The translations under genes and the position numbers were made by a program. Below the pieces are notes generated by a model, which did not search any database, was not told where the DNA came from, and saw only the letters and a list, made by a program, of their open reading frames with translations. 64,000 bases of DNA from Candidatus Cloacimonadota bacterium (GTDB lineage Bacteria > Cloacimonadota > Cloacimonadia > Cloacimonadales > Cloacimonadaceae). The stretch lies in assembly GCA_020532545.1 (NCBI GenBank), contig JAJBAW010000008.1:1-64000 (forward strand), given 5' to 3'. This document shows, piece by piece, positions 4,758 through 36,733 of the stretch; within the stretch, counting starts at the first letter, position 1; each line of letters starts with the position of its first letter.

Positions 4758-6044
4758 ATGAATTTTTACTGTACAAAATTGAGGTTTACGATGAAGAACC
4801 AGGCCCTGCTGCTTGTCATAATAATGCTTTTACTGGTCTCTGGCTTTGCTGGATGCTCCAAGAATAAAAACTTACACAAAAAAGCCCTGAACTTTTTAGA
4901 AAGGGGAGATTACGATAGAGCCACCATGCTGGCAGCCGAATCGCTCTTGCTGAAGCCGGATTATGATAAAGCCATTTATACCCTGCAGGAGGCTTATCCC
5001 AAAGCCAATCAAAGACATCTGGATGAGATATCCGCGCTGAAAGACAGCGAAAACAATGATAAATGGGAGTTCATTCTGGATGAATATACAGCTCTGGAAA
5101 AGCTGCATCGCTCAGTGCGCAAGCTACCCCCTCTCAGCGATCCCCATAGTGGTGTCCGCCTGATATTTGACTCCAGGGATTACAGCTCCGCTATCAATGA
5201 GGCCAGAACAAATGCCGCCGAAAACTATTATCAAAAAGGCATCCGTCAGAGCAGGATAGACAGCAGCCGCAGCTCGCAGAAAAAAGCCGCAGGTTTCTTC
5301 CAATCTGCCTTGAATCTGGTTCCGGATTTCAAAGATAGCGCCTCCCGCTATGAAACTGCCCGGCAAAATGCCATTACCCGCGTCGCCATCACCGCTTTTG
5401 AAGATAAATCCGGCGCTCATGGCCGCTATGGAGCCATTGCCGATATCCTTGCCGATCTGGTGCTCAGTTACATTATTTATGATCAGGACAATTGCGAATT
5501 TGTGGAGATCATCACCCGGGCGCAGATGGATCAAGTGATGCAGGAGCAGGAACTGAGCACTTCAGGACTCGTGAATGAATCCAGCGCCGCCCGCATTGGG
5601 CTGCTTTTAGGGGCACAGGAGATCTTGAGCGGCAGAATATTGCAAGTGGACTATATCTCACCCCGGATCACAGCTCTTGATGTGCACGAAACCGCCAATG
5701 TCGATATCGAGGATGAGAGCCAGGAGCAATCGACTAATAAAGAAGTGAGCTGCCACTTTCGCAAATATACCAAAAGATCTGGCTTGCAGATTTTAGCTTC
5801 CTTTTCCGTGGTGGATGTATCTACCGGGAGAATTATGCTGCAGAAAAGCCTGAGCGGATCTCAGAACTTTGAAGCGGAATGGGGCGAAGTCATCAGTGGC
5901 GATGTCCGCGCGCTCAGCCCCAGCCAAAAGAATCTTGCCCAAAAGGGTGAGCCCTCTGCCCCCACAGCCAAAGAAATGGTCAATGAAACCCTGAATGTGC
6001 TCAGCAGAGATATCGCCTCTTACTTTTTCGAATATATCAAATGA
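4758..6044 (+). CDS. CsgG/LpoB-like lipoprotein, 428 aa
   Basis: The N-terminus has a lipoprotein signal, 'LLLVSGFAGCSKNKN', with the acylated Cys near residue 33. Residues 40-190 are helical and TPR-like ('RGDYDRATMLAAESLLLKPDYDKA' type repeats). From about residue 205 there is a CsgG-like domain: 'RVAITAFEDKSGAHGRYG', 'EIITRAQMDQVMQEQ', 'IGLLLGAQEILSGRI'. The family covers curli exporters, LpoB-type enzyme activators and FlgO-like proteins; with no csg genes nearby a general envelope-assembly role is more likely than curli export. ATG 4758 has AGGAG at -15; ATG 4791 (MKNQALLL) with GAGG at -11 would give a more usual signal peptide. It overlaps the LPP20 gene by 4 bp (ATGA), so the two are translationally coupled. 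Confidence 0.8.
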   Translation: MNFYCTKLRFTMKNQALLLVIIMLLLVSGFAGCSKNKNLHKKALNFLERGDYDRATMLAAESLLLKPDYDKAIYTLQEAYPKANQRHLDEISALKDSENNDKWEFILDEYTALEKLHRSVRKLPPLSDPHSGVRLIFDSRDYSSAINEARTNAAENYYQKGIRQSRIDSSRSSQKKAAGFFQSALNLVPDFKDSASRYETARQNAITRVAITAFEDKSGAHGRYGAIADILADLVLSYIIYDQDNCEFVEIITRAQMDQVMQEQELSTSGLVNESSAARIGLLLGAQEILSGRILQVDYISPRITALDVHETANVDIEDESQEQSTNKEVSCHFRKYTKRSGLQILASFSVVDVSTGRIMLQKSLSGSQNFEAEWGEVISGDVRALSPSQKNLAQKGEPSAPTAKEMVNETLNVLSRDIASYFFEYIK

Positions 6045-32989: not shown

Positions 32990-33721
32990 TCAGCTCAGAC
33001 TTAGTTGATAGCACAGTATCGCCGCAGTCATCGCCACATTCAGCGATTCCATCTCTCCTGCCATGTCTATCCTCAGCGTGGTATCGGCTTTCCCCAGCAG
33101 CTCTGGATCGATGCCATGAGCTTCGCTACCCAGGATGTAGATTTCATTCTCTGGGGAAGGAACGTGCCGGGAAAGACCAATGGTTCCACCCATATCCAAG
33201 GCTATCAGTCTGGCTTGTTCGGCGCTCAGATCTTCCGGGCTCACATAGTGGAAAGGCAGCTTATATACCGCTCCCAGCGAAGCGCGTATCACCTTGGGGC
33301 TAGCGATTTCGCAGCAATCTTCGGAGAGCAGGATGCCATCGATCCCAAAAGCGGCAGCGGTGCGGAAGATGGTGCCCAGATTTCCCGGGTCCGAAATTCG
33401 GTCCAGGTACAGAGCTCTTTTGTGCTTTTGCCGACGCTCCTCTGGAAGGTGAAAAAGCCCGGCCAGATCGGCTGGATTTTCGCTTTCACAGATCCGCTGC
33501 ATTTGATGTGGGGTTAATTCATAGCTGGTAATTCCAGCAATCCCTGTAAGCGGACGCTTCACATAATAGAGTTCAGCAGGCCTTACGCCAAAGACAAGCA
33601 ATTGATCGATAAGACGCTGACCTTCGACCACCACCAGCTTCTGTTCTTGCCGGTATTTCTTTTGTTTCAACTTCGCAAGATAGCTGATTTTCTGCTTTGA
33701 AATCTCTTGTTCTGGATGCAT
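32990..33721 (-). CDS. TrmH/SpoU-family RNA 2'-O-methyltransferase, 243 aa
   Basis: Residues 1-90 form the substrate-binding domain ('YLAKLKQKKYRQEQKLVVVEG', 'LYYVKRPLTG'). The SPOUT domain has motif 1 'LDRISDPGNLGTIFRTAAAFG', motif 2 'IYILGSEAHGIDPELL' and motif 3 'IDMAGEMESLNVAMTAAIL', with the expected trefoil-knot residues N, R, E and N. It resembles RlmB/TsnR-like enzymes that methylate 23S rRNA; the exact target cannot be told. The start faces the gap with the DnaA-box cluster. Confidence 0.92.
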   Translation of the reverse strand: MHPEQEISKQKISYLAKLKQKKYRQEQKLVVVEGQRLIDQLLVFGVRPAELYYVKRPLTGIAGITSYELTPHQMQRICESENPADLAGLFHLPEERRQKHKRALYLDRISDPGNLGTIFRTAAAFGIDGILLSEDCCEIASPKVIRASLGAVYKLPFHYVSPEDLSAEQARLIALDMGGTIGLSRHVPSPENEIYILGSEAHGIDPELLGKADTTLRIDMAGEMESLNVAMTAAILCYQLSLS

Positions 33722-33755
33722 TCTATAGCTCCTTAATTTTCAGTTAACTACAGAC

Positions 33756-33863
33756 TTGTCCACATTCCTTTGTGGATAAACCCTTCTGTCTATATTGCTG
33801 ATAATCAATGTTATAACCATCTATTTCCTTTCTGTCACAAAACTTATCCACAGCTTATACACA
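33756..33863. other. Cluster of four DnaA-box-like sites (candidate origin or DnaA-controlled region)
   Basis: The 161-bp gap between 33722 and 33882 holds TTGTCCACA (33756-33764), TGTGGATAA (33771-33779, i.e. TTATCCACA on the minus strand), TTATCCACA (33844-33852) and TTATACACA (33855-33863). Three match the TTATNCACA consensus exactly and one has a single mismatch. The last two start 11 bp apart, about one helical turn. AT-rich DNA (33780-33843) separates the two pairs. Single TTATCCACA sites also occur by chance elsewhere in the window (42554, 46995). No dnaA, dnaN or parAB gene lies in the window. Confidence 0.55.
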
Positions 33864-33882
33864 AGTCTTACAAGTGCCTGAT

Positions 33883-35592
33883 TTAGTATAAGATAGTAAG
33901 CTTTTTGCGCATTTTCTTGCTGCCACTATTCAGCTCCAGCAGGTAGATCCCCTGCGCAAGTTTATCAAAGCCTGGCACAAGGTCCAGCTTGAGCATTCCA
34001 GGACTTTGGCTGGGCACATTAAAGTGATAGTTGATCAGCCTTTGCCCTTTGATGTTGTACAGTTTCAGGCTCACTGACTTGTCACTCCTCTCTTCAGAGT
34101 ACCACTCCAAAAAGGCCAGCCTCAGATCTCGGATGGGATTGGGATAAATCAGCAGAGCAGGCTCTGGAGACTCGTAGCTATAGTCCCCTGCCAAGGCGGA
34201 TGATACATTATTCGAGCGATCGATAGCATAGATCTTGTAGCTGCCGTTTGCAGCAAAATCGAAAGAGAGCTCAAATTCTTCCGCGTAGGCTCTGGGATAG
34301 ATCTCAAAGTTCAACTCGCCACTTTCCAGACGGTAATACAGTGAATCCACATCCACTGGCGCTTTGAGCTGCAGATAGAGCTTGCCGAAGCGGGCAAATT
34401 GCCGGATCAATTCAGGCCTTGCGGGTGGGGTGATGTCTTCCCCCAAAGCCAGATTAACCAAGCTCAACCAGCCCGTTTTGCCAAATTCCATTTTCATGTA
34501 GGTCTTCCAGGCCGCATCAAGATTGTAACGAATATCCGGGTACCAGAGGGCGAGGCTGGAAAGATTGGACTCCGGCCAGGCCAGAGTGTATGATGAGGCC
34601 AAAATCATCTCTTTGAGCAGGGTCAATAAGGGGCTACTGTCGATGAGTCCCGCCTCATGAATCCTGGTCAAGAATTGGGTAATATCCACATCGGCATAAC
34701 CGGAATTCATCTCAAAAAGCTCTTCCCGGATGGCGGCCAAGTCCCCGGCTACAGGCCTCAAAGCCCTTGAAAAGTCTTTGAAGGCTTGATAAAAGTCATC
34801 GGCCTTATCCGTCTTGACTGCCGAACAGGTTGTGGTGTAATGGTATATGGAAGGGTTGTTCGCGCTTCCGGGTAAATATGAATCTGTATAAAGTTTGGGC
34901 AATTTCGCAGCTAAAAGCTCTGGATCGCCTGCCAATACAGGCACGATCTCAGAATAGGGAAAGCCTTGTACGGGAACCTGATCTGCGGAGCCGACGATGA
35001 TATCGGCATAGTGCCTCAAAGTGTGCACAATCTCTATGCTCTGCATACTGCAGGCATCAAAAAGCAGTATATCCAGCTTGGGCCCAGCACTCAGAGCAGA
35101 GGCCAGCTCACCATTGGCTACACCGATTATATTGCCAGTGCCTTGATCCGGAGCGATATACTTGGGATTCTTATACCAGCTATCGGCATGAGACCAGATA
35201 ATCAACATTTTATGCTGAGAAGGATAGCGAGCAAAGCCCCAGCGGATAAAGTTTTTGAGTTCGCCCGGATCTCCGCTATCGATGGTGCCTAGTTCCTGGA
35301 TGGCGGTGGATGCGATCCAAGGGGATTGGTTTTCCTTGATCAAGTAACGCGTGGCACCAGACACCGGCAAATCCACCTGCACCACGAGCTTGAGATCCTT
35401 GGCCTGAATAGCTCTCTCCATCTGTATAATATCCTCTACAGCAAAAGAGGAAAGGTCGTTATCCGCTGCCATATAGACCAATACAGTCCAATCCGTGGCA
35501 AAAAGAGAGCTAGCACCCAGGATAAGCAAAATAGCCAGGAGCAACAGGGCTTTAGGCATCTGGCCCTTTTTGCAGATAGGGGAGCTTGGCAT
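33883..35592 (-). CDS. Clostripain-like (C11) cysteine peptidase with C-terminal sorting domain, exported, about 569 aa
   Basis: The signal segment 'ALLLLAILLILGASSLFA' precedes the C11 start 'WTVLVYMAADNDLSSFA'. The catalytic His is in 'MLIIWSHADSW' (usual form DHGSGW) and the Cys in 'ILLFDACSMQSIE' (usual DACLMG). The C-terminus is a FlgD-like sorting module ('LLIYPNPIRDLRLAFLEW', 'LKLYNIKGQRLINY', ending KKLTILY). It probably cleaves after Arg/Lys at the cell surface. ATG 35592 follows GGGGAG at about -17; 35559 and 35631 are other possible starts, the last without a ribosome site. It ends 20 bp from the DnaA-box cluster. Confidence 0.87.
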   Translation of the reverse strand: MPSSPICKKGQMPKALLLLAILLILGASSLFATDWTVLVYMAADNDLSSFAVEDIIQMERAIQAKDLKLVVQVDLPVSGATRYLIKENQSPWIASTAIQELGTIDSGDPGELKNFIRWGFARYPSQHKMLIIWSHADSWYKNPKYIAPDQGTGNIIGVANGELASALSAGPKLDILLFDACSMQSIEIVHTLRHYADIIVGSADQVPVQGFPYSEIVPVLAGDPELLAAKLPKLYTDSYLPGSANNPSIYHYTTTCSAVKTDKADDFYQAFKDFSRALRPVAGDLAAIREELFEMNSGYADVDITQFLTRIHEAGLIDSSPLLTLLKEMILASSYTLAWPESNLSSLALWYPDIRYNLDAAWKTYMKMEFGKTGWLSLVNLALGEDITPPARPELIRQFARFGKLYLQLKAPVDVDSLYYRLESGELNFEIYPRAYAEEFELSFDFAANGSYKIYAIDRSNNVSSALAGDYSYESPEPALLIYPNPIRDLRLAFLEWYSEERSDKSVSLKLYNIKGQRLINYHFNVPSQSPGMLKLDLVPGFDKLAQGIYLLELNSGSKKMRKKLTILY

Positions 35593-35653
35593 TGTCGCCA
35601 CGCTCCCCTTGGAAATCATGCTGATTTGCATCTATATAAGCTATATCCGCGTC

Positions 35654-36733
35654 TTAATAAGGATAATCCATGGCTTCTTCCAGGCCTTGTAGAACCCGGA
35701 TTCCACCCTGACACAGGGCTTCCATCTCTTTTTCGCCGGGGTACAGATAAACTTTGGCGATGAAGGAGCAGCGGTCTGTAATCTCATCCACGATGAAACT
35801 GTTGTAAACCAAGCCGCCGGAGAGGAAGATACCATCTACTTTTCCACTGAGCGCTGCTGCTGAGGCGCCAATTTCCTTGGACACCTGATAGCACATGGCT
35901 TCCAGGATCAATTTGGCTTTTTTATCGCCTTTCTGGATGCGTTCATCTACTTCGATTCCGCTATCTGTGCCCAGATATGCCATGAGGCCAGCAGTTTTGG
36001 TGAGATATGTATTCAGCTCTTTCTTCGTGTATTCTCCGCTGTAAGCCATGTCAATCAGATCACCGATGGGCAAGGCTCCGGCTCTTTGCGGGGAGAAGGG
36101 TCCCATGCCCAAAAGGGCGTTATTTACATCCACCACTTTCCCGCCTTTGATCGCTGCCACAGAGATGCCGCCACCCATGTGCACACCGATGAGATTTACC
36201 TGGGAGATGTCTTTACACACTTCTTTGGCCATCAATCTGGCGATATAGCGTATGTTCAGAGCGTGAAACAGGCTTTTGCGCTCGATCTCAGGAATGCCGG
36301 AGATTCTGGCGATATCCTCAAATTCATCCACCACCACAGGATCTACGATAAATCCCGGGATATGCAACTCTTCCGAGATTGCATTGGCGATAAAGGCTCC
36401 CAGATTCGAGGCATGAATCCTCCCCCACAGAGCGGTATCTTTCAAATCGCGCATCATGGAAGGGCTGATCTTCATCGTGCCGCCCTTTACAGAGCGCAGA
36501 AGTCCGCCTCTGCCCACCACTGCATGCAGGCTTTTGGGGTCAACGTTATTTTCGCGCATAGCTTTCATTACCAGAGCTTTACGAAAGTCATATTGTTCGA
36601 TGATGCCGGCAAAAGGCTCAAGCTCTGCCGGGTCATGACGCAGAGTCTTTTCAAAAAGAGGGGTATGCCCTTCATGCACAGCTATTTTGGTGGATGTGGA
36701 GCCAGGATTGATCGCGAGAACGCGGTATTTCAT
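35654..36733 (-). CDS. buk: Butyrate kinase, 359 aa
   Basis: 'VLAINPGSTSTKIAVHEG' is the acetokinase-family N-terminus. 'AVVGRGGLLRSVKGGT', 'FVDP'-like 'GFIVDPVVVDEFED', 'LIGVHMGGGISVAAIKGG' and 'LSGGLVYNSF' are specific to butyrate kinases over acetate kinases. It makes ATP from butyryl (or branched-chain acyl) phosphate. The partner phosphotransbutyrylase is not in the window. GGAGGTAAT precedes the ATG. Its presence fits fermentation of amino acids to short-chain acids. Confidence 0.95.
   Translation of the reverse strand: MKYRVLAINPGSTSTKIAVHEGHTPLFEKTLRHDPAELEPFAGIIEQYDFRKALVMKAMRENNVDPKSLHAVVGRGGLLRSVKGGTMKISPSMMRDLKDTALWGRIHASNLGAFIANAISEELHIPGFIVDPVVVDEFEDIARISGIPEIERKSLFHALNIRYIARLMAKEVCKDISQVNLIGVHMGGGISVAAIKGGKVVDVNNALLGMGPFSPQRAGALPIGDLIDMAYSGEYTKKELNTYLTKTAGLMAYLGTDSGIEVDERIQKGDKKAKLILEAMCYQVSKEIGASAAALSGKVDGIFLSGGLVYNSFIVDEITDRCSFIAKVYLYPGEKEMEALCQGGIRVLQGLEEAMDYPY

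Follow-up and report, generated by a model that had tools for sequence, protein, structure and literature searches.

A compact cluster of DnaA boxes in the gap upstream of an RNA methyltransferase gene of Candidatus Cloacimonadota was found to be an old and real site, whose internal spacing is fixed and whose gene neighbourhood has mostly stayed the same. We read it, with a probability of about 0.62, as an extra-origin, non-coding DnaA-control locus that would carry an ordered complex and work like datA or DARS, and it probably helps to time the start of replication, in the manner of E. coli datA. The initial annotation had proposed a replication origin here, with a DnaA-binding, datA-like site as its second choice; it is this second choice that fits the evidence best.

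The DnaA boxes and their surroundings

The window, as we call the whole 64-kb stretch of DNA that was analysed, lies on contig C141 of a 3.04-Mb draft genome. The features at the site are listed below in window coordinates.

32990-33721, minus strand: gene for a SpoU/TrmH-family RNA 2'-O-methyltransferase (trmH), with an MRM3-like substrate-binding domain and SpoU_methylase
33744-33752, plus strand: possible weak fifth box (TTAACTACA; TTATCTACA in relatives), 12 bp from D3, picked out by eye
33756-33764, plus strand: DnaA box D3 (TTGTCCACA, one mismatch), oriented as the tandem pair and 88 bp from D2, start to start
33771-33779, minus strand: convergent DnaA box (TTATCCACA on the minus strand), facing D3; in most genomes of the family (f1) its offset from D1 is fixed at +83 to +85
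33791-33816, no strand: spacer dyad resembling two IHF half-consensus elements (YAANNNNTTGATW / WATCAANNNNTTR), centred at about 33803.5, from sequence only
33844-33852, plus strand: DnaA box D2 (TTATCCACA), 11 bp from D1 on the same strand
33855-33863, plus strand: DnaA box D1 (TTATACACA), first of the tandem pair, with a column information of about 1.9 bits over 31 aligned family sites
33883-35631, minus strand: gene for a clostripain-family (C11) protease with a T9SS sorting tail, the usual neighbour, its 3' end facing the site
35654-36733, minus strand: butyrate kinase gene (buk), the next gene out, conserved in the block

The four boxes in 108 bp (33756-33863), three exact and one with one mismatch, were confirmed as first described, with starts at 33756, 33771, 33844 and 33855 and the last two exactly 11 bp apart. 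The AT-rich character of the gap was likewise verified (65% AT over the intergenic 33722-33882), and the gene-strand pattern claimed for the flanks is broadly visible in the list of open reading frames. Several relatives carry a one-mismatch box at the place of the possible weak fifth box. A phage search of the locus gave no match.

No other 108-bp stretch of the window is as dense in DnaA boxes, and in 60 Markov simulations of 64-kb sequences the maximum was one exact box per 108 bp; for a 108-bp stretch with three exact boxes, the Poisson expectation over the whole genome is about 0.001. Genome-wide, 125 exact boxes were counted, compared with 36 matches to the reversed pattern, so that single, scattered boxes are enriched too. 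Clusters across the genome were judged from 100 of these 125 boxes, and a further cluster on the remaining contigs is possible.

Conservation of the geometry and of the spacer

All 46 f1 genomes with an assembled locus have the site, and the tandem pair D1-D2 stands upstream of trmH in every assembled f1 locus. A first search at the trmH locus, for a tandem pair 11 bp apart and then for the other boxes, had recovered it in 34 of 36 f1 genomes; the larger count adds G016, where the site lies next to buk, and further f1 genomes. Within f1 the site is absent only where trmH and buk are also missing or where a contig ends: trmH, buk and the site are missing together in G003, G064 and G065, and the buk contig of G062 ends 681 bp downstream. 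A cluster on contig C266 of G062 was rejected as the site, its spacing (pair + 114 bp) being that of the dnaA 5' cluster. Named relatives with this locus belong to Candidatus Cloacimonadota, among them Candidatus Syntrophosphaera thermopropionivorans, and at least seven further families of the order carry the site, usually just downstream of the C11-protease gene.

The layout is order-wide: a tandem pair 11 bp apart, a spacer of about 75 bp and a third box in the same orientation. When it was written as an exact signature (D1 and D2 11 bp apart, D3 85-88 bp after D2, all in one orientation), it was found in 40 of 125 phylum genomes, one copy in each and never two, and the reversed control gave 0 matches. 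The source window itself misses the exact signature because of the single mismatch in D3, and the signature was not found in the sister families f12 and f13. Some genomes have extra boxes, at offsets close to multiples of 11 bp (+22 to +24, +33, +77). The site is non-coding, outside oriC and, in its exact signature, single copy.

Outside f1, a box cluster 3' of the C11 gene was seen in G038, G039, G040, G043, G044, G049, G053, G054, G057, G058 and G059; in G039, G044 and G054 the third-box spacing is absent, and in the outgroup genomes G050, G051 and G055 no recognisable cluster was found 3' of C11. The geometry sometimes stands beside genes other than C11 (loci L171, L172 and L319). The cluster of G042 is at the opposite side of an ABC-C11 operon, that of G041 adjoins speD-like and speE-like genes (named by eye) and that of G052 a T9SS-tail-like ORF. 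Separately, DnaA-box clusters were noticed inside the coding sequence of a secreted protein of about 790 aa in G054 and G044 (L158:3981-4150, L163:3878-4030); they coincide with a repeated NLST peptide and may be a coding coincidence. In G020, at about 1.372 Mb (L116:1850-2060), DnaA-box-like words recur every 40 bp in a tandem repeat array.

Over the 31 aligned family sites the boxes hold about 1.9 bits per column and the spacer 0.38 bits. The f1 spacer has conserved columns arranged symmetrically around +59.5, counted from where D1 starts (49/70, 55/64, 48/71), and the best IHF-consensus registers are +60 (forward) and +47 (reverse). In the outgroups, which were not used to find the dyad, the best registers were +59/+60 and +47, with the best dyad centres at 59.0 and 59.5. 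Among shuffled consensus strings, 0 of 3000 were as extreme in both the f1 and the outgroup sets, a figure that is inflated by kinship. The outgroup match to IHF is weaker than that of f1 (best single-site match p ~0.05), and in the source genome the right half of the dyad reads TATCAGCAATATA on the minus strand, with 2 of 9 defined positions off. The resemblance was noted post hoc in f1, the motif is imperfect and the sequences are related, not independent; we therefore treat a putative IHF/HU-like site in the spacer as a lead and not as proof. The box geometry is fixed and the register of the IHF-like dyad constant, with a consensus match that is imperfect. HU/IHF-family genes gave two strong matches each in the source genome (G000) and in G020, and one weak match in G000.

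Conserved boxes around a spacer whose sequence is mostly not conserved could also be produced by a passive titration cluster of the B. subtilis kind, which would soak up DnaA without an ordered complex. Nor need conservation mean a strong switch, given that the B. subtilis clusters outside oriC act weakly and collectively (PMC5295017). Strict spacing and orientation over many genera, a single copy and a conserved dyad nevertheless exceed what titration needs, and we regard this explanation as rather unlikely.

Neighbouring genes and the position of the origin

In f1 the order along the DNA is buk, C11 protease, site, trmH. No C11 gene was found at this place in G015, Syntrophosphaera and genus g4, where the site still lies between buk and trmH. 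Since the f1 boxes mostly lie about 30-150 bp upstream of trmH, in the region where its promoter would also lie, and DnaA is a known transcription factor (PMC4447404), the site could be a promoter element by which DnaA would couple trmH expression, through repression or activation, to replication. The neighbourhoods speak against it. trmH is the family-specific neighbour of the site and is absent from this position in other families, and outgroup families possess trmH without such a box cluster. The geometry persists where the next gene beyond the site is hisS (G043, G053, G059), nadC (G057) or pgk (G040), and where that gene converges on the site, namely an M16 peptidase gene in G044 and a class V aminotransferase gene in G038. 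With the gene beyond it so variable, the site is not a promoter element of trmH. Where two genes converge there is no obvious promoter, so the function common to all these loci cannot be that of a promoter, and the promoter role was rejected as the shared function. Even near trmH the two can be parted, by an extra gene of about 105 aa between them in g4 and by an insertion of about 150 bp in G030, and in G060 the assembled trmH is frameshifted (split over three frames, L204:8408-9144; a decayed gene or an assembly error) with the upstream DnaA site intact. The site is independent of trmH, and control of the TrmH-like gene, also suggested in the initial annotation, does not agree with its being kept where trmH is elsewhere and between converging genes in two genomes. 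We judge the promoter explanation to be distinctly unlikely. The g4 gene (FYFDLLQQY...ILQLRIE) is conserved in three genomes (L065, L066, L067), without a Pfam match.

The fixed gene neighbourhood would also suit some other task in which DnaA takes part, for instance the organisation or positioning of the chromosome, or a different protein that recognises a similar sequence. This is very improbable, as the boxes match the DnaA consensus at the source genome's own dnaA flanks, where the same 11-bp pairing occurs.

Those flanks bear on the origin as well. The dnaA gene lies on contig C145, with boxes 33-157 bp upstream and 84-283 bp downstream (L003:3891-4024 and 5463-5662, with CCTACTA-type trio repeats by the last downstream box). 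Using the definition of DnaA-trios from PMC8287927, we found in 13 of the 13 family members checked that the downstream cluster carries a box and, within about 26 bp, CCTAC(T/A)A-type trio repeats; the upstream cluster of the members checked has no trios. At the site itself only two weak, chance-like trio matches were seen among 34 genomes, and this unwinding motif is absent. The gene next to the downstream cluster is lipoprotein-like, not dnaN.

In the single-contig relative G020 (2,246,820 bp), GC skew was calculated from forty 20-kb samples and placed the origin at dnaA, with a score of 0.95 versus 0.14 at the site; 0 of 2000 permutations scored as high as dnaA. The site is 447 kb from dnaA in G020, which is 20% of the chromosome, the distance to oriC being taken from this one genome. 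GC skew in the window has no minimum at 33.8 kb, where the cumulative curve is flat. Gene-strand bias in G020 did not significantly favour dnaA (p ~0.2) and peaked at 320-530 kb, and it is thus uninformative as an origin marker. A search of open PMC papers on Cloacimonas or Cloacimonadota with replication origin or DnaA returned nothing relevant.

An oriC at the site, for which the clustered boxes in an AT-rich gap had spoken in the initial annotation, was rejected as extremely improbable, with dnaA elsewhere and flanked by box clusters on both sides, trios downstream of dnaA and not here, and the skew origin at dnaA. The oriC of Cloacimonadota is likely the dnaA 3' region with its DnaA-trios.

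A proposed datA- or DARS-like mode of action

In E. coli, datA promotes the hydrolysis of DnaA-ATP, and its deletion causes over-initiation; DARS promotes the release of ADP from DnaA and has a core of DnaA boxes I-III. For the Cloacimonadota site we propose that DnaA would occupy D3 and the tandem pair D1-D2, all in one orientation and on either side of a bendable spacer, and that an HU/IHF-family protein would bend the spacer at the mid-spacer dyad, joining the two DnaA groups. The complex would then alter the nucleotide state of DnaA, or tie up DnaA after the fork duplicates the site, with the outcome that oriC next to dnaA would fire once per cycle. Binding, bending and a regulatory effect are here predicted from the arrangement of the sequence, which is compatible with inactivation (datA-like), reactivation (DARS-like) and ordered titration alike. 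We thus call the candidate site datA/DARS-like in its putative mode of action and do not file it as a member of either.

The binding sites of datA are conserved more than its spacers (PMC4585315), a contrast also seen at the present site, and an IHF-dependent loop model has been put forward for it (PMC10380432). As measured here in E. coli MG1655, a perfect IHF site follows an exact datA box (+0) at +65, and the next exact box, in the same orientation, comes at +162. Both loci are non-origin, non-coding, intergenic and single copy, with same-orientation boxes on either side of an IHF site or, in the present case, of a putative IHF-like dyad. However, the Cloacimonadota site is shorter (about 98 bp from D1 to D3), begins with a tandem pair 11 bp apart and has an imperfect dyad where datA has one clean IHF site; in G020 it is separated from dnaA by about 20% of the chromosome, it shares no neighbourhood with datA, and sequence homology is not claimed. 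DARS1 and DARS2, compared by description, likewise lie at a distance from oriC and are non-coding, each a cluster of three or more boxes whose spacing is fixed (PMC4585315); Fis is involved at DARS2. The B. subtilis clusters are extra-origin as well (PMC5295017), but there six clusters have a weak collective effect, whereas each genome with the present exact signature has it once, in a fixed geometry. Tandem DnaA boxes are also found in bipartite origins with DnaA-trios of the B. subtilis and H. pylori type, a description that fits the dnaA flanks and not the site, which is without trios.

A review contrasts datA and DARS of E. coli with B. subtilis, in which clusters outside oriC matter little (PMC5295017). 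We tentatively suggest, as a possibility somewhat short of even odds, that a datA-like DnaA switch composed of boxes and an HU/IHF-bent spacer may be an old, largely position-fixed locus of the Cloacimonadota, a phylum remote from the Enterobacteria; if this is true, control of DnaA through such a site would be either ancient or independently evolved. The analysis yields a defined 110-bp DNA segment that can be tested in vitro, and the likely oriC of the Cloacimonadota has also been located, in the dnaA 3' region with DnaA-trios. A conserved site of constrained spacing in an uncultured phylum, distant from E. coli and B. subtilis alike, suggests that dedicated chromosomal sites control DnaA more widely than in E. 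coli.
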